Below, piece by piece: positions 16,513 to 28,910 of a stretch of DNA of 40,434 nucleotides (position 1 is the stretch's first letter; each line of letters begins with the position of its first letter). The translations under genes and the position numbers were made by a program. The notes beneath the pieces are model-generated. The model did not search any database. It was not told the origin of the DNA and worked only from the letters and a program-made list of their open reading frames with translations. Source of the stretch: a virus; IMG/VR virus record IMGVR_UViG_3300047457_000468, positions 1 to 40,434 of that record. One strand, 5' to 3'.

Positions 16513-17424
16513 TCAGCCGGGAATGAATCCCTTGATTTCGAGCGAAAACGGCGTGTCGATCTGGGCCAGCGCCGCAGGGTCGAAGAACGACAGCCGGAAC
16601 ACAGACGTGGTGGACGACCCATCGAGCCACGCCGATGTCACGCCGTTCAGGTGCGGTTGCGCAAACACCGTGACGTTTGCCAGCGCGTCGACGGGGACCG
16701 TCAGCGTGACATCGTAGATGCCTTGTGCAAACCGCGTGATGCTGGCGACGTTGTAGATGTTGGTGGTCGCCGCCGTCGCCGTCGATGACGTCTGGCGCGC
16801 AAGGGCCAGCGTCATCGTGCGGCGGTTGAGCGACCCGAGGTCAGCGCCGGTCGGCTGCACGTCGTTGCCAAACGCCAGCGTCTCGCAGAGCACGTCGTCG
16901 ATGTGCGCGGTGCGCCACTCACGCGAGGCGCTGCCGAGGTCGTGCGCGTTGGTCGTGTTCGGGATCAGCGACCCCACCACGCGGGCATTCGCGGCGACGT
17001 TGACCAGCACGCCCACGCCAGTGTTGCTGCCGATCGTGAGTTCGGCACCGTCCTGAAGGATGACGTCCGACCCGTTCTGCGCCGTCAGCGACTCACCCGA
17101 CGCCAGCGTGATGGACCCGCCGATGGCAGGCAGGCCCGACGCTGTCGGGAAGGTGAACACCTGCGCGTTGTCGGCATCGTGAACGGCGATCGAATAGTCG
17201 CCACCGATATAGACGTTTGCCGGCGCACCGGACCGCACGATGACGCCAGACGACGTGCGCAGCGGCTGCGATGCGGGGATGGTCAGCGCTTCGTCCCAAT
17301 AAACCGTCTGCGGGTTGGTGACGGCGTTGAGGTTCGGCGAGCCGATGTAGATGAAGCCGCCGTCGATGGGGTCGCCGGCAGCGTCGAGGAAGACGGGAAA
17401 CGGGGGGACGATTGACGCTGTCAC
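16513..17424 (-). CDS. Tailspike-like protein with P22-type head-binding domain
   Basis: A 303-residue tail protein. Residues about 5-95 match the head-binding domain of the P22 tailspike: FPVFLDAAGDPIDGGFIYIG, the PQTVYWDEALTIPASQPLRT stretch and the GGDYSIAVHDADN loop. The remainder is beta-rich and lacks the long parallel beta-helix of the P22 enzyme, so this may be a short spike or an adaptor for other proteins such as the SGNH esterase downstream. GTG 17424 overlaps the previous stop (GTGA). Confidence 0.78.
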   Translation of the reverse strand: MTASIVPPFPVFLDAAGDPIDGGFIYIGSPNLNAVTNPQTVYWDEALTIPASQPLRTSSGVIVRSGAPANVYIGGDYSIAVHDADNAQVFTFPTASGLPAIGGSITLASGESLTAQNGSDVILQDGAELTIGSNTGVGVLVNVAANARVVGSLIPNTTNAHDLGSASREWRTAHIDDVLCETLAFGNDVQPTGADLGSLNRRTMTLALARQTSSTATAATTNIYNVASITRFAQGIYDVTLTVPVDALANVTVFAQPHLNGVTSAWLDGSSTTSVFRLSFFDPAALAQIDTPFSLEIKGFIPG

Positions 17425-19874
17425 TGTCTGGCCTCCTGCTGCCCGGTCTGCATCGCCGCCGTGAGCCACGCTTCAGCGGCCTTCGGCTGACGCGGGAGTC
17501 TGGCAGCTTTCGCGAACTCGCGCCACGCCTGCGACATCGCCACACGGCGCACGCTGGCCGGGCTCGTCTTGGGCTTGGTGGCGGCCTCGATCGCCAGCGT
17601 CTGGAACTCCTCGGACGCGAACAGCTTGCCAGCCTTGGCGATGCCGTCGCGGCTGCCCTTGGCGACAGCGTCGGCCAGCATGGACGCGCCCATGGCCCCC
17701 GCCGGGCCGCTGACGGCACCAGCACCGGCAGCCACCGCGCCGCGCCCGATGGTCGACGACAGGATCTTGCCGATCAGGTTGTCGGCTCCCACCTGGTCAA
17801 GCACCGGCTGGAGGCTCTTGCCGGTGCCATAGACGCCGGCCCGTGCATCGGTGATGCGCTTGGACACCTCGTAGAGGTCGCGCATGACGCGGTCCGACTC
17901 GGGACCGAGCACCTTGACGATCTGCGCGTACACGGGCGCGTTCGCGCGCAAGCCGCGATAGGTCTTCGCCCACTCGGCGAAACCGAAGCGCCCGGCCTCA
18001 GCGCCGCCCTTGGCCCTCGTCACGCTGGCCAGCGCCGTGCCGATCGCCTCGCGCTGGAGGTCCGGCGGAACCACCTTGAGCACCTTGGCGAACGCGGCGC
18101 CGTCACCTGCGGCGGCCTGCTGGATGGACCGCTGGAGCAGGCTGCCGATGCTGCCGTCCACTTCCCTGCCGAAGGCGCCCACGATGCGCTTCTCAAGGCC
18201 CTTCTGCTTGGCGGTCAGCAGGTTCGCCGCGCGCAGCTTGCGCCGCACCTCGCCACCGGCGATGCGTTCGGCGTTCTCGAGCTGATCCTCGGCGAGGGCC
18301 GCATAGAGGCGCTTGGCGTTCGCCGCGTCGATGTTGGCAAAGGCCCCGCTACGGCGCTCGACGGCCTCTCCAAGCTGCGCCTTGAGGCGCTTGAGCGCGC
18401 CATAGCGCACGTCGCCGGCCTTCAGCGACGCCAGAAGCTTGCGCTCCTCGGCGGTCAGTTCCTCGCCGACCTCCTCGGCGATCTTCATCAGCTGGTCGCG
18501 CGTGCGGTTCAGTTGCACCTTGTCGGTGGGCTTGAACGCGGCATCCACGTCGGCGTACAGCTTCGCGGCGTCGTCCTTGAGTGCACCGCGCTGTGACTGC
18601 AACGTCGTCAACACCTTGTCGGAGACGTTGCCCACCGACGGCGCGCCCTCGACGAACGCGGCATCAAACTGTGCAATCGCCTCGTCAGCCTTGTCGACAG
18701 CGCCGCGCACCTGCTGCCTCCACGCGGCCTCGGCTTCGCCGCCGACTTTGGACCGCACCAACCCGATCACGGCGCGGATCTGGTCGTTGTCGGCGAAGAC
18801 GTCGGCTGGCAAGTCCATGCCCAGCCGCTCGGCAGCCGCGCGCGCCTCGGGGTTGATGGCGGCCGCTTCGGCCAGACGCGCCTGCGCCACGGTGCTGCCG
18901 TCGCCGGCCTTGCGCACCAGGTCGCCGAGCTCGGCTTCCGGCATCGGCGCGCCCGGTGCGGGACGCGGGGCAGCGGGCGTGGGCGCCGCCTCGACGGCCT
19001 CGCCGACGGCGCGCACGGCGTCGTCAGCAGCGCCAGCCGCGCCGCGCAAGCCCTGCCGCGCAGCCTGCACCGCCGGCACAAGCCCACCGGTGGCACCAGC
19101 GATCGCCACCTCGGCGGGGTCGAAGCCACCACCCGAGGCCGCCTGCGCGCCCTCGATGCCCGCCTGCGTCAGCGCGTTCGCCGCGACGGCGCGACCCACA
19201 CCAGCGACGCCGCCGGCAGGAAGGAACGCACCACCCTGCGCCACGATGCGCGGGGCATCAGTGAGGCGCAGACCCGGCTGGACGCTGTACGTCTGGCCGT
19301 TCGCCGACGTGAAAAAGGCGTTTCCACGCTCGTCGCGACCGACCTTGAGGTCTGGGAAGTTGGCCTGAAGGATCTGGATCTGTTCTTCGGGCGAGGCCGC
19401 CTGAAGGGACATGCCGCGCACGCCCTGCACGATCTGGCCAACGGGCGTCGCCGACAGCGCCGTCTTGACGCCGCCGGCCACCTGCTCGACGAGGCCCGCG
19501 CCCTGCTGCTGCTGCGGAAGCATCGACGTCAGTTGCTGCCACTCGGGGGACAGCGTGATGTCCGTCGCCGCCTCGGTCGTCGCCGTGCGGCGCTGCGACC
19601 CGGTGACAGCCTCGGCGATGGCACCGGGGATTCCCTTGAGGGTGTCGACGACACCGGGCCCATCCTCGACCGTCGGCGGGGCAAGGTCGGCCATCGTCGG
19701 CTGCGGGGCAGCAACGGCGGGAGCGGGCGCCGCCATGATGGCGTCCCGGAGGTCGCGCGGCGCGACGACGTCGCCGGCCTCGACGCTCGCACGCAACGCG
19801 GCAAGCTGCTCCGGGGGGAGCGTGCCAGCCCGCAGGGCGTCGAACGCGGCGAAGACGTCCATTTCGGGGTTCAC
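17421..19874 (-). CDS. Large DNA-ejection (internal virion) protein
   Basis: An 817-residue Ala- and Glu-rich, mainly helical protein, the largest in the window. It follows two other proteins of the same type, matching the set of three ejection proteins that P22-like phages deliver into the cell during DNA entry. Features are a helical start (FAAFDALRAGTLPPEQLAAL), hydrophobic Gly/Ala-rich stretches near 190-260 and 690-720, and long coiled coils at about 380-560. No transglycosylase motif is evident. The assignment rests on position, size and composition. ATG 19874 overlaps the previous stop. Confidence 0.65.
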   Translation of the reverse strand: MNPEMDVFAAFDALRAGTLPPEQLAALRASVEAGDVVAPRDLRDAIMAAPAPAVAAPQPTMADLAPPTVEDGPGVVDTLKGIPGAIAEAVTGSQRRTATTEAATDITLSPEWQQLTSMLPQQQQGAGLVEQVAGGVKTALSATPVGQIVQGVRGMSLQAASPEEQIQILQANFPDLKVGRDERGNAFFTSANGQTYSVQPGLRLTDAPRIVAQGGAFLPAGGVAGVGRAVAANALTQAGIEGAQAASGGGFDPAEVAIAGATGGLVPAVQAARQGLRGAAGAADDAVRAVGEAVEAAPTPAAPRPAPGAPMPEAELGDLVRKAGDGSTVAQARLAEAAAINPEARAAAERLGMDLPADVFADNDQIRAVIGLVRSKVGGEAEAAWRQQVRGAVDKADEAIAQFDAAFVEGAPSVGNVSDKVLTTLQSQRGALKDDAAKLYADVDAAFKPTDKVQLNRTRDQLMKIAEEVGEELTAEERKLLASLKAGDVRYGALKRLKAQLGEAVERRSGAFANIDAANAKRLYAALAEDQLENAERIAGGEVRRKLRAANLLTAKQKGLEKRIVGAFGREVDGSIGSLLQRSIQQAAAGDGAAFAKVLKVVPPDLQREAIGTALASVTRAKGGAEAGRFGFAEWAKTYRGLRANAPVYAQIVKVLGPESDRVMRDLYEVSKRITDARAGVYGTGKSLQPVLDQVGADNLIGKILSSTIGRGAVAAGAGAVSGPAGAMGASMLADAVAKGSRDGIAKAGKLFASEEFQTLAIEAATKPKTSPASVRRVAMSQAWREFAKAARLPRQPKAAEAWLTAAMQTGQQEARQ

Positions 19875-21277
19875 TGCTGCACCATCCCCGAGGCGCTGCG
19901 ACGGTTGCCAGTGGGTGCCGCCGGTGCGGCGACAGGGGGCGCCTGCGCCGGGGCCGGCACCGCAGACCGCAGGGCGCGACGCTGGAGGGCTTCAAGCACC
20001 TCGCCGTAGGTCGACCCGGCCGGCACCTGCACGCCGTTCACTGTCATGTTCTGGCGCGCCATGCCGACGCCGCCGTTCTGGCTGACGTAGTCGGCCTCGC
20101 CCTTGGCGACCACCTCGGCGAAGCGGTTGATCTTCTCGAGGCCGCGCAGGTACGACGCCACGATCTTCGGGTCGCTCGTGCCGGCCGGCAGGGGCTTGCT
20201 CGCCAGCGCGATGTCGGTGTCCGACGCGGCACCGGGCGGGAGCGACGCCAGAACCTGGCCGGTCTTGATCTCCTCGAACTGCGCCCGCGCCTGCGACACG
20301 GCGTCTTCCATGCCCAGCTCGCGCTTGATGCCCTCGCCGACCATGGCCACGCGACCACCCATGACGCCAGCGGCGGCCATGCCCTCGAACTTCACAGCGA
20401 GTTCGGCAGCCTTCGCCGCCATCGCGTTGGCCTTGACCGCCTTGTCGCTGGCGTCGACGACGCGCTTCTGCGCGGGTTCGGTGAGGTTGACCAACGCGGC
20501 GGCCCGCTCCTGCTGCGCCTTCAACTTGTCGAGGGCCAGCCGTTCGCGGTCGAGGCCGAGGCGCGCCGACTCGATCGCCGTCTGGGCCTTGAGGCGCTTG
20601 GCCTGCTCCTGCGTCAGCCCGATCTCAGCAGCGAGGCGGTCGGCCTCCACCATGGACTGCTGCGCCTTGATCGACGCCTCGGCTGCGGTGCGCTCGGCCT
20701 CCGCGCCCGTCTTGGCGATCTCCCCGCGCGACCTCTCGAACTCCGTCAGACGCTTGCCGGCCTCTGGGTCGATGGCCTCGATGCGCAGCTGGAGCTGCGC
20801 GCGCACAGCGTTCGGGTTGGCCTCAACCTGCTCGGCGAGGCGCCTGAGGGCGTCGGCGTCCTGCTGGCGGCCCGCGTTCTCGTAGGCCGTCGCAGAGCGA
20901 AGGAAGGCATCCTTGGCGCCCTTCACGTCGCCGGACGTGAGGAAGCCCGTCGCCTCCGTCATCTGCGACAGGCGCGTCTTCTTCTCGTCCTCGTTCAACG
21001 ACGTCATGAAGCCGCTGACCTGCTCCTTGAGGCCGGGGTAACGCAGCAGGATGGACCGCGCCCGCTCCGACGACGGGGCCTGCTCCAGCGCGGCGAGCTC
21101 GGCACGCATGGCCGCCTGCTGGGCCATGTCCATCCGCTGCTTCTGCGCGGCCGCCTCGCGCTGCTTCATGACGTCAGCGGCGTCGGTGATCGTGCCGCCG
21201 ATTGCCATGCCCCTGGCGAACTGGCCAAGGTCGATCTGCGTCGGGGCGATGCCGTACTGGATCGGATTGAGAGCCAT
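19871..21277 (-). CDS. Coiled-coil DNA-ejection protein
   Basis: A 468-residue protein with a nearly continuous coiled coil at about residues 40-300 (QKQRMDMAQQAAMRAELAAL and AKTGAEAERTAAEASIKAQQ) and a Pro/Ala-rich C-terminus. The start MALNPIQYGIAPTQIDLGQF is typical of the middle ejection or inner tail protein in P22-like phages. It is coupled to its neighbours on both sides. Confidence 0.65.
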   Translation of the reverse strand: MALNPIQYGIAPTQIDLGQFARGMAIGGTITDAADVMKQREAAAQKQRMDMAQQAAMRAELAALEQAPSSERARSILLRYPGLKEQVSGFMTSLNEDEKKTRLSQMTEATGFLTSGDVKGAKDAFLRSATAYENAGRQQDADALRRLAEQVEANPNAVRAQLQLRIEAIDPEAGKRLTEFERSRGEIAKTGAEAERTAAEASIKAQQSMVEADRLAAEIGLTQEQAKRLKAQTAIESARLGLDRERLALDKLKAQQERAAALVNLTEPAQKRVVDASDKAVKANAMAAKAAELAVKFEGMAAAGVMGGRVAMVGEGIKRELGMEDAVSQARAQFEEIKTGQVLASLPPGAASDTDIALASKPLPAGTSDPKIVASYLRGLEKINRFAEVVAKGEADYVSQNGGVGMARQNMTVNGVQVPAGSTYGEVLEALQRRALRSAVPAPAQAPPVAAPAAPTGNRRSASGMVQQ

Positions 21278-22044
21278 CAGAACGCTCCACCGGTGGCGAG
21301 TTTGCCGGCGATGCCGGCGCCCTGCAACGTGAGGTCAACCGCCTGCTGCTTGCCCGCGTTGCGCGCGGCCTGCTGGCCGAGGATGCCGCCGGCACGGTAC
21401 GCGCCCTGCGACTGCATGAGGTCGGCGAGGCTGCCGCCAATGGCCGCACCCTGCGCAGCCTGACCAGCCGCCGACGCCTGCCCGAGACCCGCCACGCTCC
21501 CGGCAGCGTTCTGGCCTGCAGCCGCGAGGCCGCCGAGGCGCGCGTACTGCTGCTCGATGAGCGACGAGAGCAGCGCCGGGCGGAACTGCGCCAGCGCCGC
21601 CTGCGTGTTGCCGCCGCGCAGACCACCCGTCGCCGAGGCGTTCTGGAGGATGGCGTTTTCGCCCTGCTGGAGCATGGCCGCGAACTGCGGCGACGCCTCA
21701 AGCTGGGCGATCGCCGCCTGCTGGGCCTGCGGTCCGTCGAGGCCCGCCAGCGCGCGCTGCATTCCGACAGCGTCCACGCCAGCGCCCTGAAACGACGCCA
21801 GACCGCCGAGGCCGCCTTGACCCGCCTGCGCGTAGGGCTGGAGGTCCGCACGGCCCTGTGCCTCGGTCTGGCGAAGCTGCTCCATGGCCTTGGCCGTCTC
21901 GGCGATCTGCGCGCGCGACGCCTGATCGATGGCCTTGGCGTTGTCCTCGCCGAGTCCGCCGGTGGCCCAGTTGATGGCAGCGGCACCGCCGCCAAGCAGA
22001 GCCGCATTTGCGCCGACCGTGACGAGGATTCCCACACCAGACAT
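21277..22044 (-). CDS. DNA transfer (ejection) protein, P22 gp7-like position
   Basis: A 255-residue Ala/Gly/Gln-rich protein. It has an N-terminal hydrophobic segment (GILVTVGANAALLGGGAAAINW), a helical linker and then the LQPYAQAGQGGLGGLASF and QQGENAILQNASATGGLRGG segments common to a widespread family of podovirus inner-virion proteins. It is likely delivered with the DNA. I chose ATG 22044, just after the cupin-SET gene. Confidence 0.7.
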   Translation of the reverse strand: MSGVGILVTVGANAALLGGGAAAINWATGGLGEDNAKAIDQASRAQIAETAKAMEQLRQTEAQGRADLQPYAQAGQGGLGGLASFQGAGVDAVGMQRALAGLDGPQAQQAAIAQLEASPQFAAMLQQGENAILQNASATGGLRGGNTQAALAQFRPALLSSLIEQQYARLGGLAAAGQNAAGSVAGLGQASAAGQAAQGAAIGGSLADLMQSQGAYRAGGILGQQAARNAGKQQAVDLTLQGAGIAGKLATGGAF

Positions 22045-22046
22045 GC

Positions 22047-22904
22047 TCAACCTCCGACGTGGATGCCCTGAACTGCCAGCGCCTGCCGGTAGTCGACGGT
22101 GACTTCTTCGCCAGCGTCGCCACCCACGCAACCGGCGATGCGCCGCGTTGCCACAAGCACAATATCACCGTTCGGCGCAAGCACAAAGCGCGCGTTCGGG
22201 TTGCGCGCGTGGTTGGTGTGGCGCCCCAGCGGGGTCCGCTTGTCGCCGACGCGGGCCGGCCCCAGCACCTCGCCAGCCTCGGCAGGGGCCGACAGGAACA
22301 CGCCGCGCCCTTCGATGGGAGACGACCGCACCGTGACCTTGGGCCAGCCAGACGGCATCGGCACCTGGTCACGGTCGTCCAGCGACATGGCGCGCACCTC
22401 GTCAGGCGTCCAGCCAGCTTGCTGGCAGAACAACAGGAAGTCCGCGCGGTCCACTTCGCGCGCCGCCTCGTCGGCTTGCCGGCGTTGCTCTGCGGACATC
22501 GCGAACACCGCCGACTTGTCGAACATCCACGCCTCCAGCGCGTCGACGTCGGTGAGGTCGGTGGCGTAGACGTTCTGCCAGACGCAATCCTCGAGTGTGA
22601 AGGCGACCTTGCGCCCCGGTGGCGCCGTGAAGATGAACGGTGCCCGCAGCACGCGCACACCGCCATCGTCGTCAAGGAGCGCCAGCGAGCCACGGAGGAA
22701 GATGTTCAGGTGCGGATGGCGGTGGTGGTGCCCGACGACGAGCGAGAACGCGGGCAAGAACACCTCACGGATGTAGATGCCCGGACCGAAGTGGTGCACG
22801 ACGGGCGCGTCCCCCTGCGGCGCGCCGATCAACTCCGCCTCGATGCGGTCGGCGACGTGCGGTGACGCCAGCGCCGTCTCGATCGTGCGGGTGAGGTTGG
22901 TCAA
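22047..22904 (-). CDS. Cupin-SET domain protein, candidate lysine methyltransferase
   Basis: A 285-residue two-domain protein. The N-terminal half is cupin-like: VVGHHHRHPHLNIFLRG with a cluster of His ligands, then PPGRKVAF and VWQNVYAT. The C-terminal half has the three SET-domain signatures: SPIEGRGVFLSAP, the RHTNHARNPNA knot motif (canonical NHxxxPN) and GEEVTVDY. SET domains methylate protein lysines using SAM. The target is unknown; a virion protein is plausible from its place among tail genes. TTG 22904 overlaps the previous stop (TTGA) like other junctions here; its ribosome site is weak, and GTG 22949 is an alternative. Confidence 0.72.
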   Translation of the reverse strand: MTNLTRTIETALASPHVADRIEAELIGAPQGDAPVVHHFGPGIYIREVFLPAFSLVVGHHHRHPHLNIFLRGSLALLDDDGGVRVLRAPFIFTAPPGRKVAFTLEDCVWQNVYATDLTDVDALEAWMFDKSAVFAMSAEQRRQADEAAREVDRADFLLFCQQAGWTPDEVRAMSLDDRDQVPMPSGWPKVTVRSSPIEGRGVFLSAPAEAGEVLGPARVGDKRTPLGRHTNHARNPNARFVLAPNGDIVLVATRRIAGCVGGDAGEEVTVDYRQALAVQGIHVGG

Positions 22905-23491
22905 GCTGGCTTCCGCAGGACAATGATCATGTCGTGCACCACGTTCCACATATGAACGCGTCGGCTGGCCTGCACCTCGGGAGCGCGGGCGCCCTCGATG
23001 GGGTCGGTGACGGGGATGCAGGCCTCCGCGACGAAATCACACTGGACGTTGTAGTGGTCGAGCTTGTTCGCGTCGCGCCACGGTTTCATAAGGTAGGAGA
23101 ATGACGCCTCGCAGATGAACCGCCGGTGCGTCGGGTCTTGGAACGCCCGGTGGCTCATGAGGTAGGGGACCACGATCTCGGCCCTTCCGCCAGGCTTCAA
23201 CACGCGATGGATCTCGTCGAAGAACGCGAAGAACAGTTCCTTGCGACCGACGCCCGGCATGGTGCTGACTTCGTTGTTGGCGTCGACGAAGCCCATCGGG
23301 ATGTGCTCGACGAAGTGCGAACACACCACCTCGTCGACGGAGTCGTCAGCCCACGGCCACGGGAACGACAACAAGTCCACCCGGTAATCACCAGTGAAGA
23401 GGTCGACGCCCTGAAAGCCGGGGCGCGGGACCTGCCCGCTGGCGAGGTCAAGGCGCAGGGGAGCGTCGTTGGTCACGGTCACGTCGGTCAT
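22901..23491 (-). CDS. Class I SAM-dependent methyltransferase
   Basis: A 196-residue methyltransferase of the Methyltransf_11 type. Motif I is LRLDLASGQVPRPGFQGVDL near residues 13-32, the acidic post-I region is VDEVVCSHFVEHI, and RVLKPGGRAEIVVPYL near 95-110 is the motif III strand. Small-molecule or glycan methylation is more likely than DNA methylation, since no DNA-specific motif is present. It lies between a glycosyltransferase and the cupin-SET gene with overlapping ends, so the three are co-translated. Confidence 0.78.
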   Translation of the reverse strand: MTDVTVTNDAPLRLDLASGQVPRPGFQGVDLFTGDYRVDLLSFPWPWADDSVDEVVCSHFVEHIPMGFVDANNEVSTMPGVGRKELFFAFFDEIHRVLKPGGRAEIVVPYLMSHRAFQDPTHRRFICEASFSYLMKPWRDANKLDHYNVQCDFVAEACIPVTDPIEGARAPEVQASRRVHMWNVVHDMIIVLRKPA

Positions 23492-24246
23492 CAATACACC
23501 TCACCAGTGCGCACGTCGATGTGTCCCACCTTGACGCGGAAGTCCACAGCGAACCGGCAGCCCTGCCGGACCGCCCGCTCGCAGAAGTTCAGATCCTGTG
23601 TGTACGCCTTTGGCACGCCGTCGACGACGTCGGAAACCGTCACAAACCACGGTGCGGCGACCTTGCGGAACAAGTCCATCTTCCACAAGGCACATCCCAT
23701 CGCGATGCCGTTGACCTCCAGCGTGGTGCCGCGCGTCAGGGCATCGCTGACCACATGCGGGGAGAACGGGGCAAAGTCCAGCACGCCGGTGGCGCGGTAC
23801 GTCTGCGGGTCGCCATAGGCCATCGGGGCGTTGAAATCGCCCTTCGTGAAGTAGATGCCCGACACAGCATCAAAGTCGCCGATCGACTCCAGCAAGCGGA
23901 TGTGCGCGTCTGGCGGTGGCAGGTTGTCGTCCTCAAGGGTGAGGACGTATTCCCACGTCGACAACTGCGGGTCCGCCAAGATGTTCGCGATCATCTTGTT
24001 GTAGGCGGTGCCGACCTCGTCGCCCGCGCACAGAAGGAACGCGCGCGCCTGGTTCATCGGGGCCATGAGCGACTGCCACGCGGCAACTGTCCGGTGGTGA
24101 ATCATGCCCCGCGTCGGGGCGATGACAACGGTACGGCTTGGCTTGTAGGAGCCGCCATGCATGACGTGCACGCGATCGAAGCCAAGGCCAGCCGACGCCA
24201 TCGAGGTCGCGACCTGGGCGACTGGCTGCATTGTGGGTGTGTCCAT
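23491..24246 (-). CDS. Glycosyltransferase, GT-A-like
   Basis: A 251-residue protein with a GT-A-type layout. A Rossmann-like start RTVVIAPTRGMIHHRTVAAW lies near 38-57, the metal/nucleotide-sugar motif TLEDDNLPPPD near 102-112 stands in for DxD, and VNGIAMGCALWKMDLFRKV near 175-193 is followed by an acidic DLNFCERA segment, typical of family 2-like acceptor sites. It may glycosylate a virion protein or a surface glycan. ATG 24246 has GGAGG four bases upstream. Confidence 0.72.
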   Translation of the reverse strand: MDTPTMQPVAQVATSMASAGLGFDRVHVMHGGSYKPSRTVVIAPTRGMIHHRTVAAWQSLMAPMNQARAFLLCAGDEVGTAYNKMIANILADPQLSTWEYVLTLEDDNLPPPDAHIRLLESIGDFDAVSGIYFTKGDFNAPMAYGDPQTYRATGVLDFAPFSPHVVSDALTRGTTLEVNGIAMGCALWKMDLFRKVAAPWFVTVSDVVDGVPKAYTQDLNFCERAVRQGCRFAVDFRVKVGHIDVRTGEVY

Positions 24247-24270: not shown

Positions 24271-26148
24271 TCACGCCGTGACGGACCGCAAGATCACAAT
24301 GGGCCACTGATTCCGTGACGTACCGCCTGTTGCTGTGATGGCGCTGATGTGAATCGACGCCGGTGCCCCGAACTCCATGATATTGGCCGCTGTCACTGTC
24401 GACGAGGCGATTCCGTTGCACTCGCAGTACGCCGGGCCGGTGGTGTTGGAGAACCCAAACCCCTGCGCGGTGAACTGCGAGACTGAGTAGCGCCATGCGT
24501 TCGACATGTTGAAGAGCGCCGACCCCGTCGTGCGGGCGTTGTGGATGTGGGCCAAAAAATACTGACCAGCCGACAGCGACGAGGCCGACGACGATGCGTT
24601 GAAGCTGACGAGGCGCGATCCGCTGATGCTGGCCGATACGTTGCCGCTGATTATCGACGTCGACGCCGCCGTGGACCCAGCAAAGGCCCCGGCCCAGAAG
24701 GACAGCGTCTGCGCCGTGACGCTGGACTGCGAGTGAACCGCGTTGAAGGCGAACTCCGTCAGCAGTGACAGCGTCGATCCGGTGCGGGTGTAGACGCCGT
24801 ACACATGGCGGTTCGTGCCCGATCCCGTGCCTGCCGCCGTGGCGCCTGCGTTGATGACGCCATCCACGGCGTTGAACGTCACCGCCGCCGGGAGCACAAA
24901 CGGCGCAACGTACATCGACAGCGTCGAGCGGAATCCGCCAGCCGTCGTCGTCGAGGCGCCGCTATACATCGTCGACGTGGCCCACGGCCACGGCGTGGCG
25001 GGATGCATGCTGAGTGTGGGCCCACCGCCGCCGCCAGCGTTCACTGACGCCGTCACAACGGAACCGTTGAGCCCAAAGGTCACGCCGTTGAGGTTGGAGA
25101 ACGTGAGAGCAGACAGGTTCTGTGACGTCGTGCCGGCGCTGACGTTGATGTTGGTCAAGCCGTTGTGGCTTGCAAAGAGGCCTTGCGTTCCCGTCGAGAA
25201 GCTGACCCCGTTGCTGTTCGCAAAAGACAGTGTCTGAAACGTCGCCGACCCGTTAGCCGCGCTGAAAGCCTGGTTCGACTGCGACGTCAGACCGTTGTGT
25301 GACACCGTGATGGTGCCGCCACCAAGGCCAAAGGTGATGCCGTTGCTGTTGCTGAAGATGATCGTGCCGGTGGACTGCGTCTGCGTCCCGGCCCCGATGG
25401 CGACGCCACCACCACCGCCAGCACCACCCGAGATAATGATCGCACCGCCGGCAAAGCCCACCGACACGCCGCCAGCACCAGAGATGGTGTGCGCCAGACC
25501 GGTCTGCTGCATCGTCGAGGCATTGGTCGTGTTGCCGGTCGCCGACCAGCGTTGGACTGGCTGGGCGACAACGAGGCCGTTCGTGCCGATGGGCCAAAAG
25601 ACATCGTTGCTAGACCTGAACTGGATGATGTCGCCAACATACGCCGACGACGCGTCGCCAGACACACCGACGGTCGGCTTGGTCTGGTTGAACGACGCCG
25701 TGATCGTCGAGCCAGTCAACCCCCAGTTGAGGTTATCAGAGCCGACATTGCCAAACGCCAGCGCCGACGCTGCGACGTTGGCCGTTGCAACGCTGACGTT
25801 GATAGCGTGTGACGCAACCAACCCGCCCGCAGCCGTCGAAAAGCTCACGCCGTTGGAGTTGACCAGAGACAGCGTCTGAAACGCGCTTGAGCCGTTTGCG
25901 GCGCTCACAGCCTGCCCAGACTGAGAGGTCAGCCCGTTGTGACTCGCCGTCACCGTCTGGCCGTTGGCGCCGAAGGTCACGCCGTTGGCGTTACTGAACA
26001 CCGCCGTGCCCGACGTGATGGCGACGGTGCCCGCCGACAGCGCCACGCCACCACCACCGCCTGCGGGGGCGGTCGCGGTGATCTGCGACCCGGTGCTGCC
26101 GAAAGTGACGTTTCCGCCAGAGCCGAAAGAGAGTGGCGTGTAGCTCAT
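24271..26148 (-). CDS. Repeat-rich tail fibre protein
   Basis: A 625-residue low-charge protein rich in Ser, Ala, Gly, Asn and Thr, typical of a trimeric phage fibre. A unit built on FSNxNGxTFG, ASHNGLTSQS and FQTLSxxNSNGVSFST occurs at about residues 50-115 and again near 262-335, with a shorter copy after it. The C-terminal 220 residues lack the repeat and probably form a receptor-binding tip (TLSMHPATPWPW, then MSNAWRYSVSQFT). ATG 26148 overlaps the preceding stop (ATGA). Confidence 0.75.
   Translation of the reverse strand: MSYTPLSFGSGGNVTFGSTGSQITATAPAGGGGGVALSAGTVAITSGTAVFSNANGVTFGANGQTVTASHNGLTSQSGQAVSAANGSSAFQTLSLVNSNGVSFSTAAGGLVASHAINVSVATANVAASALAFGNVGSDNLNWGLTGSTITASFNQTKPTVGVSGDASSAYVGDIIQFRSSNDVFWPIGTNGLVVAQPVQRWSATGNTTNASTMQQTGLAHTISGAGGVSVGFAGGAIIISGGAGGGGGVAIGAGTQTQSTGTIIFSNSNGITFGLGGGTITVSHNGLTSQSNQAFSAANGSATFQTLSFANSNGVSFSTGTQGLFASHNGLTNINVSAGTTSQNLSALTFSNLNGVTFGLNGSVVTASVNAGGGGGPTLSMHPATPWPWATSTMYSGASTTTAGGFRSTLSMYVAPFVLPAAVTFNAVDGVINAGATAAGTGSGTNRHVYGVYTRTGSTLSLLTEFAFNAVHSQSSVTAQTLSFWAGAFAGSTAASTSIISGNVSASISGSRLVSFNASSSASSLSAGQYFLAHIHNARTTGSALFNMSNAWRYSVSQFTAQGFGFSNTTGPAYCECNGIASSTVTAANIMEFGAPASIHISAITATGGTSRNQWPIVILRSVTA
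25050..26001 (-). repeat. Internal repeats of the fibre gene
   Basis: Diverged direct repeats lie at about 25797-26001 and 25145-25360, with a partial copy at 25050-25110. Protein similarity is clear (SNxNGVTFGxNG, SHNGLTSQS, NSNGVSFST); DNA identity is only moderate, so they are old duplications rather than a recent expansion. Confidence 0.7.
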
Positions 26149-26504
26149 ACGATCCACCACCTCACGCCGTCGCTAACGACAGTCACCGACTGCCCAACAA
26201 GGCCCAGAGCATACGACGCCACGCCGTCGATTGTCTCGCCGTTGGTGGCGGCGACGTCGACAGCGCCAGATGCACCACGCTTGACGGTCAGCATCTGCCC
26301 GACGACGTCCGACGCGCGTGGCAGCGTAGCGGTTCCGCCGCCCGACATGACGACGACGCGGTCCGCTGCCGTCAGCGCCGTCGACGAGGTCGCCACGCGG
26401 ATGGGAACAGCGCCCGCGACAAGCCGCTCAAACACGCGGACCGTAGGCTGGTCGTTGCCGACAGCCCTCACGATCTGCGCGCGCGTGAGACGTAGCGAGT
26501 CCAT
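26145..26504 (-). CDS. Small beta-rich virion protein
   Basis: A 119-residue protein. After a helical start (SLRLTRAQIVRAVG) it has a series of strands ending in TNGETIDGVASYALGLVGQSVTVVSDGVRWWIV, a C-terminal module that also occurs at the ends of phage head-fibre and tail proteins. It lies between the gp10-like protein and the repeat fibre and may be an attachment piece for the fibre. Both ends overlap neighbours. Confidence 0.6.
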   Translation of the reverse strand: MDSLRLTRAQIVRAVGNDQPTVRVFERLVAGAVPIRVATSSTALTAADRVVVMSGGGTATLPRASDVVGQMLTVKRGASGAVDVAATNGETIDGVASYALGLVGQSVTVVSDGVRWWIV

Positions 26505-27907
26505 CAGAACTCCAGAGGTTCGATACGGGCTTCAAGCCGAGCGAAGGACAGGTGCGCCGTCGACGTGCCGCGAAAGCGCTGCGCGCGCCAGTTGCGCATG
26601 GCACCGTTGCGCATCCACCGCAGGCGCTTGGCGCGGTCGCCGATGCCGCCAGCTGCGATCGTGTTGTCCTGCGACCACGTCTCGCCGTCGACGCTGTAGG
26701 ACGTCGACACCGTCGGCGATGCTCCGAGCGTGACACGCCCGGTCAGCGACACCAGTTCAAGCTCGTGCAGGATGGCACCCTTGCTCGCGTTGTAGACGAT
26801 GCCGGTGGAGAACTCCCAGCGCACCTCGCTGCCCCAATGCGCGCCCGTCTCCTGCGTCATGTAGCCGACAGAGAACGACGTCGGGTCAGCCGCCTGCCAC
26901 CGGTTGAAGCACCACACGAAGAAGCGCCCACGGTAGGTGGAGAAGCCCACGAGCGACGACGTCAACGTGAACCACACCGCTTGCCCGAGGGCCTGCGACG
27001 CTGTGCCGTCGAACACCAGCGTGCGATCGGGGAGGTGGATGTAGAGGTGCTGGTGCGCGTTGTCGTTGCGGAACTCGACGACGATCGTGGCCAGCGCTTC
27101 CTCGTTGTACGACGCGAGGATGCGGTCGATCTCGACGGTGCTGATCTTGTTCGCGTTGCCCGCCGCCGCCATGTAGACGCCGGGCGCCTCGTTGCGGCCG
27201 CTGCCGACAAAGGCAATCGTGTCCATGAACACGCACTTGGCGTGCGTGCCAACGGCGCCCTTGGTGATGTGGGCGCCCTCGATGCGCTGGAACGGGAAGC
27301 CCTCGCCCCCGACGTTGTCGAACACCTCGATGGTGAAGCGGTTGAGCGCGTAGAGCTCGTTCCGCAGCACCTCGATGCCCGTGATCGGGTCCGGGTCAAT
27401 CTCGCTACTGCCGTACTTCAGCGGGTTGACGCTGGTCGGGTCGGCGAGTTCCGTGACGACGAGGAAGTCGCCGTCGGTGGTGACGAAGTAGCCGTCGAGC
27501 CAGACCACATCAAGCACGGTGCCGAGGTCGGTGTCCGTCACCTGGGTCAGCGTGGTGCCGTCCCAGTAAAAGAGCGCACCGTCCGACGACACCGCCAAGA
27601 AATCGAAGCCGTAGGCGAACGACACGACACCGGCGCCGCCGACGTCGCCGAGCGTTGTCACGTTGCCGATGTTGTCGACGCTGACCAGCTTGGTGCCCAT
27701 GACTCGGTAGCAGCCACCACGCCACTCGATGCCGCCACGACACACGCCGGGGCCGGTGCCCGTCTGCACCAGACCATCGGCGGGGCGCAGGTAGCCGGCG
27801 CTGATCCCGCTGTCCGTCGGCGTCGGAACGAGGTTCACCGGGTAGGCCAGACGAAAGTCCGGCCCGCCATCGGTGTAGACGCCAGAGAGGATCGGGATCT
27901 GGACCAT
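26504..27907 (-). CDS. P22 gp10-like tail hub / DNA stabilization protein
   Basis: A 467-residue protein, close to the 472 of P22 gp10, which closes the portal channel and forms the tail hub. The N-terminus VYTDGGPDFRLAYPVNLVPTP, then SGYLRPADGLVQTGTGPGVCRGGIEWRGG-like segments, and SVDGETWSQD and LRWMRNGAMRNWRAQRFRG near the C-terminus fit the family. ATG 27907 follows the upstream stop by one base; the frame extends upstream but overlaps the previous gene. Confidence 0.85.
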   Translation of the reverse strand: MVQIPILSGVYTDGGPDFRLAYPVNLVPTPTDSGISAGYLRPADGLVQTGTGPGVCRGGIEWRGGCYRVMGTKLVSVDNIGNVTTLGDVGGAGVVSFAYGFDFLAVSSDGALFYWDGTTLTQVTDTDLGTVLDVVWLDGYFVTTDGDFLVVTELADPTSVNPLKYGSSEIDPDPITGIEVLRNELYALNRFTIEVFDNVGGEGFPFQRIEGAHITKGAVGTHAKCVFMDTIAFVGSGRNEAPGVYMAAAGNANKISTVEIDRILASYNEEALATIVVEFRNDNAHQHLYIHLPDRTLVFDGTASQALGQAVWFTLTSSLVGFSTYRGRFFVWCFNRWQAADPTSFSVGYMTQETGAHWGSEVRWEFSTGIVYNASKGAILHELELVSLTGRVTLGASPTVSTSYSVDGETWSQDNTIAAGGIGDRAKRLRWMRNGAMRNWRAQRFRGTSTAHLSFARLEARIEPLEF

Positions 27908-27908
27908 G

Positions 27909-28910
27909 TCAGGCAATCCGCCAGTTGGTGCCATCGTAGAAGACGACGACGGAGTTGGCGCCACCGCCGGCCACGATGCTGTTCTGCGTCGTCGCGTTGG
28001 CGTTGTTGACGATGGCGATCATGCCGGCCAGCGGGGTCGCCGGAAGCGCGGCAACCGTCGTTACCGTGAGGCGCGGAGCCGTGGCGAACTCCATGCGGTT
28101 CTGGACGTCGACGACGCCACCGGCGATCAGGACGACGTCACCGGTTGCGGTGATGCTGGCGTCCGTCGTGTTGGCCGAGATGGCCACGTTCGCGCCTTGC
28201 AACAGCGCGGCGCCGGTGGAGCCACCGTTGACGCGGACACCGCCAGAGCCCTTGCCGACGACCTGCATCTCAATGTTCGTGTCGCCGCCGGTGGCAGCGA
28301 TCACCACCTCGTTACCCGTCGTCGAGTAGACGAGCGTCGGATAGTTGACGGCGGTGCCGACACCCTCCTGAGCGAACGCCAGCATCGTCTCTCCGTCGCC
28401 GGACAGGATCGAGCCCGTGATCGTGATGTCGCTGAAGGTGTCGATGGACCCCAGCGACTGCGCCACGCACCACCACTTCGTGGCCGACGCCTGATAGCGG
28501 AACTGGGCGAAGCCGTTGGTGCCGAGCGCCGCCGGAGCACCGGCCACCGTGGCGCCGTTGCCGTCGACGGTGAGCGCCGTGACCGCCTGCGACGACGTGA
28601 CGACGATGACCTGACCGTCAAAGCAGTCCTCGTCGGGCGGGAACTGGATGGTGCCGGTGGCGAACGCACCCGTGGGGTTGACGATCATCCAGATAGACGA
28701 CGTCGAGGCGGTCGCCGTCACCGTGAAACCGTTGGACGTCGGCGCAAACGTCTGCGTCTCAAGGTCCGGGTTGGCGAAGTTGGCCTCGATGAACGACAGC
28801 AGCGTCGACAAGGACGCCTTGCGGGCGTCGCCGTCGCTGGCGTCGTAGACGGGGATCTGGTCACCGCTCGCAAGCGACGAGGTGGACGAAAGCTGGTTGA
28901 TCGTCGGCAT
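27909..28910 (-). CDS. Beta-rich virion protein between the gp4-like and gp10-like genes
   Basis: A 333-residue protein beginning MPTINQLSSTSSLASGDQIPVYDASDGDARK, an opening shared by many phage tail and fibre-related proteins. Ser, Thr, Ala and Gly are abundant, and the C-terminal segment (AALPATPLAGMIAIVNNAN, ending FYDGTNWRIA) is a common small beta motif of phage fibres. It is probably a tail or head appendage. In P22 this position is not occupied, so it is an insertion relative to that genome. ATG 28910 overlaps a TAA (TAATG). Confidence 0.65.
   Translation of the reverse strand: MPTINQLSSTSSLASGDQIPVYDASDGDARKASLSTLLSFIEANFANPDLETQTFAPTSNGFTVTATASTSSIWMIVNPTGAFATGTIQFPPDEDCFDGQVIVVTSSQAVTALTVDGNGATVAGAPAALGTNGFAQFRYQASATKWWCVAQSLGSIDTFSDITITGSILSGDGETMLAFAQEGVGTAVNYPTLVYSTTGNEVVIAATGGDTNIEMQVVGKGSGGVRVNGGSTGAALLQGANVAISANTTDASITATGDVVLIAGGVVDVQNRMEFATAPRLTVTTVAALPATPLAGMIAIVNNANATTQNSIVAGGGANSVVVFYDGTNWRIA

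Follow-up and report, generated by a model that had tools for sequence, protein, structure and literature searches.

Glycosyltransferase and methyltransferase genes that belong with a repeat fibre lie beside a separate cupin-SET core gene in a P22-like podovirus

Three enzyme genes lie between a repeat fibre gene and the DNA ejection genes of a P22-like podovirus. Two of them, encoding a GT-A glycosyltransferase (GT) and a class I SAM-dependent methyltransferase (MT), are part of a widespread unit together with the repeat fibre gene that precedes them; no description of this unit was found in the literature. The third gene, a fusion of a cupin and a SET domain (cupin-SET), belongs to the core genes of P22-like podoviruses and is separate from the GT and the MT. 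It is fairly probable that two independent systems stand side by side here, a mobile fibre-GT-MT modification module and the separate cupin-SET gene. An even chance is given to the more specific reading, according to which the module glycosylates and methylates its own host-binding fibre in phages of varied genome sizes, and cupin-SET is, separately, a lysine methyltransferase that has a minimal SET domain and either takes part in virion assembly or is ejected.

The window, i.e. the whole stretch of DNA that was analysed, is a complete IMG/VR record of 40,434 bases. Its phage was recognised as a P22-like podovirus by the portal, the major head protein, Ad3 and Hc3. In bacterial genomes only 5 MAG contigs were matched, mostly of phage size, so that no reliable host could be named. 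The genes of the region are given below in the order of transcription.

26504..27964, minus strand: Hc3, P22 gp10-like protein for head closure and stabilisation of packaged DNA (PF11134, 9e-41; phrog_578, 3e-101)
26145..26504, minus strand: 119-aa protein upstream of the fibre, its start resembling the N-termini of fibres in other loci
24271..26160, minus strand: repeat fibre, 629 aa, with a shaft of SNSNGVTFGLNG-type repeats and a head domain at the C-terminus
23491..24246, minus strand: GT, GT-A glycosyltransferase, 251 aa (PHROG glycosyltransferase match; AlphaFold2 fold)
22901..23494, minus strand: MT, class I SAM-dependent methyltransferase, 197 aa (Methyltransf_11 above cut-off)
22047..22904, minus strand: cupin-SET fusion, 285 aa (phrog_34170, 9e-74; AlphaFold2 model)
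21277..22044, minus strand: ejA, gp7-like DNA ejection protein (phrog_598 DNA ejection, 1e-21)
19871..21277, minus strand: ejB, second protein of the ejection block at the position of P22 gp20 (assigned by position; syntenic in relatives)
17421..19874, minus strand: ejC, gp16-like DNA transfer protein (phrog_6704, 4e-36; phrog_770, 1e-4)

The 119-aa protein is probably a tail-anchoring N-terminal piece, as judged from its sequence. GT and MT, and likewise MT and cupin-SET, overlap by 4 nt. An earlier note on this DNA had described three enzyme genes with overlapping ends between the repeat fibre and the ejection genes, namely a GT-A-like glycosyltransferase, a class I methyltransferase and a cupin-SET fusion carrying three SET motifs. 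Coordinates and overlaps agree with this description, and all three assignments were borne out. For cupin-SET a longer frame of 300 aa starts at 22949; the alignments of its homologues begin at about the TTG at 22904, which supports the start chosen in the earlier note. All three are genuine, undisrupted genes, and purifying selection on them is strong. Compared with the closest relative (L002), dN/dS is 0.10 for GT, 0.13 for MT and 0.14 for cupin-SET, by which chance is excluded for all three. The repeat fibre diverges faster than the three enzymes, with a dN/dS of 0.38.

The GT gave no match in Pfam and was recognised by a PHROG glycosyltransferase family (2.9e-8). Its AlphaFold2 model (pLDDT 90.1) shows a GT-A Rossmann-like fold. 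Using Foldseek, the closest structure was STIV A197, followed by the protein glycosyltransferases LH3, COLGALT1 (acting on collagen) and polypeptide GalNAc-T2. With LH3, COLGALT1 and the polypeptide GalNAc-transferases, the nearest solved folds, the phage GT shares the GT-A fold with an acidic metal-binding motif. These enzymes are eukaryotic, however, with an identity of about 10-15%, and the phage GT lacks their lectin or hydroxylase domains. Across 51 relatives the residues E105-x-D107, D113, T216-Q217-D218 and G241-H242 are invariant; E105-x-D107, D113, D218 and H242 include a DxD-type metal/nucleotide motif and a catalytic acidic residue. All active-site residues are retained in GTs down to 29% identity. 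For MT, Pfam Methyltransf_11 was found with E=1.2e-5 and 26.3 bits, over the curated cut-off of 21.2 bits, and E63, H64, R97, P110 and H123 are invariant in 59 relatives.

Among 50,697 phage records the GT family hardly occurs, yet it has at least 544 matches in IMG/VR when searched with the GT alignment. In the phage records, the window GT found 41 weak or partial matches, mostly from mycobacteriophages, and a diverse GT query found three uncultured records at 1e-8. Plasmids searched with the GT gave no match. Genes for sugar-nucleotide epimerases or dehydratases were found at 8 GT loci; at the inspected ones they separate GT from MT, which supports sugar chemistry at GT loci. Such genes are located at L277:13041-14081, L309:14575-15585, L295:13774-14820 and L241:12707-13963.

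The repeat fibre itself (24271-26160) has no match in Pfam or PHROG, and a tblastn search of INPHARED retrieved no cultured phage carrying it, where the low-complexity filter of BLAST may hide one. For fibre, GT and MT together INPHARED likewise yielded no cultured phage, the uncultured circular genome MW202524 coming nearest. The motif occurs 5 times in the window and 7-20 times in relatives. For the survey, a protein was counted as a repeat fibre if it contained at least three N-x-[VI]-[STN]-[FW]-[GS] repeats. Among the 237 loci first surveyed, such proteins were found only at GT-bearing loci. Two further GT loci (L083 and L098) stay below this number of repeats, and their fibre has the same C-terminal head domain. 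As a control, 227 cupin loci have neither the fibre nor the GT.

When IMG/VR was searched with the fibre repeat, 69 fibre loci were found among the matches listed, 52 of them with GT and 49 with GT and MT. Where at least 2 kb of downstream sequence was present, 49/51 of the listed fibre loci carry both enzymes. The two exceptions are weak: L243 has no GT beside the fibre, but its contig is also listed as L338, where a GT is present at another place, and the stored sequence of L260 ends 6 kb past the fibre. The GT is on the same strand as the fibre in 51/52 loci, with a median gap of 141 nt between fibre and GT and of 8 nt between GT and MT. In the reciprocal search with the GT alignment, the 80 loci among the matches listed contained the MT in 77/80 and the repeat fibre in 48/80 cases. 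GT is hence encoded together with a virion structural gene across lineages, as seen at the fibre loci, and with MT, as seen at the GT loci. Of the listed GT loci with more than 6 kb upstream, 54/68 have the repeat fibre or the head domain; the other 14/68 have long upstream flanks with neither of them. A converged profile of the C-terminal head matched 101 loci, 95 of which carry the GT (among the matches listed). The 6 head-domain loci without GT were found by the fibre query and have little or incomplete downstream sequence. The head profile gave no match to cupin loci without a repeat fibre. All survey counts are best matches among those listed and describe the retrieved loci, some of which repeat one contig, not the frequencies in nature. 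The GT, MT and head profiles were iterated on retrieved loci, and the earlier loci without fibre gave no GT match at 1e-4. The contigs of these loci vary in length between a few kb and more than 250 kb. Together with the GT identities down to 29%, this means that fibre, GT and MT are not the property of one phage clade. A description of a fibre-dedicated GT-MT module was not found in our literature search.

We infer that a fibre-dedicated glycosylation and methylation module is the best reading of GT and MT. The fibre of the module is defined by the SNGVTFG repeats and/or the shared C-terminal head, and is the proposed substrate of both enzymes. Late in infection, the GT would add a sugar to Ser, Thr or Asn side chains of the fibre, either in the repeat shaft or in the C-terminal head. 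The MT might add a methyl cap, either to the sugar or to the fibre. Such a decorated host-binding fibre could differ in receptor binding, stability or recognition.

The cupin-SET protein consists of a cupin (about residues 18-131), a helical linker (about 132-180) and a SET domain (about 188-280). The AlphaFold2 model of 22047-22904 (mean pLDDT 94.3) has matches to cupins when compared with the PDB and to SET domains when compared with the viral library. The cupin part has a double-stranded beta-helix fold (Foldseek E 5e-6 to TM1459, and further matches to other cupins). By our reading its motif 1, G-H-x-H/Q-x3-H, is TM1459-like; the His of motif 2 is absent. Against Pfam SET the window protein scores 21.6 bits, just under the cut-off of 22.4. 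In the family (n=67), 61 members match Pfam SET and 7 match Cupin_2, and the family profile matches MLL-type SET domains at 3e-9. All three SET motifs are conserved in 64 distinct sequences down to 25-40% identity: G214 and G216 of the SAM-binding GxG are invariant, the NHxxxPN pseudoknot motif is kept at 100% for N246 and H247 and at 98% for P251 and N252, and the catalytic GEExxxDY at 100% for E282 and Y287 and at 97% for D286. The SET-I subdomain is missing. Only 7 residues lie between GxG and NH, compared with 42 in MLL1 in the profile alignment, i.e. about 35 fewer. The signatures and the SET fold are shared with SET lysine methyltransferases like MLL/KMT2 and vSET of PBCV-1. Unlike these, the phage domain has no SET-I, carries a GCxGG loop before GEE, is fused to a cupin and is encoded in a phage virion operon. 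The conserved GCxGG insertion is located just before GEExxxDY (22047-22343 in the window); L067 and cellular SET domains do not have it. Standalone relatives of the phage SET domain were not found among the 80 best matches, which included one split and possibly frameshifted copy (L108). Cupin-SET is an uncharacterised family (phrog_34170) with known folds, and our literature search retrieved no paper on a phage family combining cupin and SET.

Among the matches listed in the survey of IMG/VR, 154 were distinct fusions of cupin and SET, and 16 were entries with the cupin alone. Their loci share one order: Hc3 comes first, followed by one or more variable genes for a fibre or needle, often by the gene of a protein of about 111 aa, and then by cupin-SET, ejA, ejB and ejC. 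A gene matching the ejA profile directly follows cupin-SET in 130/146 loci with at least 400 nt downstream, with a median overlap of 4 nt. Several of the 16 non-matching loci are divergent phages, and in one of the misses (PH1) the annotation there reads 'DNA ejection'. Cupin-SET thus sits at the position of P22 gene 14. P22 gp14 (DUF2824) is likewise encoded between needle or fibre and gp7, but it has no detectable sequence relation to cupin-SET and neither a cupin nor a SET domain by Pfam. Homology to gp14 was rejected, as PF11039 hits P22 gp14 at 6e-53 and does not hit the window protein. Shewanella phage X14 and Thalassomonas phage BA3 have cupin-only homologues at this place in the gene order, annotated as 'short tail fiber protein', a label for which no experiment was found. 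The proteins named 'short tail fiber protein' or 'tail fiber adhesin' (phrog_12032, phrog_24280) from phages of marine gammaproteobacteria have a homologous cupin in the same position. They differ in having no SET domain, and their fibre label is an annotation. Among cultured phages, Rhodoferax phage P26218 carries the full fusion. In L065 (9989-10489), a cupin 64% identical to that of the window has lost the SET domain, showing that SET is dispensable even among close relatives.

Since the cupin persists alone in the same position in phages of Vibrio, Shewanella and Thalassomonas, the cupin part may well have a conserved function, which would be in the virion or in assembly. The SET part would be an active lysine methyltransferase, with a partner from virion assembly or one that is ejected as its substrate. 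No lysine whose conservation is confined to phages with SET was found in ejA, ejB, ejC, Hc3 or the neighbour of about 111 aa, so the ejection proteins are unsupported as a fixed-site target of SET. The earlier note had suggested that the three enzymes modify tail or ejection proteins. Virion modification is plausible, and for GT and MT the genetic linkage points to the fibre. Modification of the ejection proteins by SET is possible, gene adjacency being its one positive support.

The further suggestion of the earlier note, that GT, MT and cupin-SET form one virion-modification system, is not supported, and we regard it as very improbable. The genes are contiguous and overlapping in the window, L002 and L102, which speaks for a common system in these lineages. 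These are, however, the only three lineages in which GT and MT stand beside cupin-SET (3/154 among the matches listed), and exactly those with the SNGVTFG-repeat fibre. The other 151/154 listed cupin-SET loci have no GT and MT, and GT-MT pairs are found away from cupin-SET in dozens of loci of unrelated phages, following the fibre. The three genes therefore do not stay together in other phages; independent movement, named in the earlier note as the outcome that would speak against the idea, is what was found for the three-gene grouping. As a general rule the one-system reading is contradicted, and a coupling confined to the window, L002 and L102 might exist. The main rival for GT and MT is a different one. 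Instead of the fibre, the enzymes could act on a host glycan or on another phage protein. In the host-glycan version they modify the surface glycan recognised by the fibre, similar to seroconversion, and thereby block re-adsorption or superinfection. The linkage to the fibre head would then reflect a common receptor, and is equally expected in this case; phage genes modifying the O-antigen (gtr) are known, e.g. in P22. We consider this version unlikely, as the GT is soluble and, at 251 aa, a small GT-A protein with no membrane region in the model, no GtrA- or GtrC-like partner was seen at the inspected GT loci, the gene lies inside the late structural operon and the nearest solved folds include protein glycosyltransferases.

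For cupin-SET two other explanations were weighed, each with a low but appreciable probability. The protein could be ejected together with the gp7-, gp20- and gp16-like proteins and methylate host proteins early in infection. Its place directly upstream of ejA, with the 4-nt overlap, and the missing conserved lysine in the neighbouring virion proteins are in line with ejection; against it stand the lack of a signal or of packaging evidence and the annotation of cupin-only versions as short tail fibre or structural protein, given by similarity only. Alternatively, the SET domain might be a structural relic with a beta-clip fold, its methyltransferase activity lost or never present. The domain is only about 93 residues long without SET-I, and cupin-only relatives, even L065, dispense with it. 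The invariance of GxG, NH, E and Y, with PN and D nearly so, is unexpected for a relic; a dN/dS of 0.14-0.19 also speaks against this reading.

The widespread fibre-GT-MT unit suggests that chemical decoration of host-binding fibres takes place in many uncultured phages. If this is true, receptor-binding fibres are commonly decorated by covalent modification in such phages, and this decoration is predictable from sequence. It would bear on host range, receptor recognition and the expression and engineering of fibres, and a fibre made without GT and MT may be inactive. Cupin-SET would be a widespread phage SET lysine methyltransferase without SET-I, tied to the genome-ejection machinery. The latter can be tested in the cultured Rhodoferax phage P26218.

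The fibre module would be a form of virion glycosylation, for which the nearest precedent is that of mycobacteriophages (Freeman 2023, as cited in PMC11256854 and PMC12619734). Che8 and Rita belong to this precedent, and in phages of cluster J, e.g. Redno2, a GT of the same broad family occurs with an MT and other GTs, adjoining the capsid gene; glycans on the virion were shown for other mycobacteriophages. They were located on capsid and tail-tube proteins, whereas the unit described here consists of two enzymes that go with a single fibre architecture, in phages that are unrelated and for the most part uncultured. In Redno2 (L387, NC_022066.1, 8021-13507) a distant GT relative, a kinase, an MT and further GTs are encoded directly behind the major capsid gene. 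This arrangement follows the same logic as the fibre module, with the capsid in place of the fibre.

A conserved protein of about 111 aa with the motif CKTIIDKFTVTN is encoded just upstream of cupin or cupin-SET in about 88/154 loci, e.g. L005:5114-5449 and L013:9499-9834. No counterpart of it was detected in the window, in which its place is taken by GT and MT.
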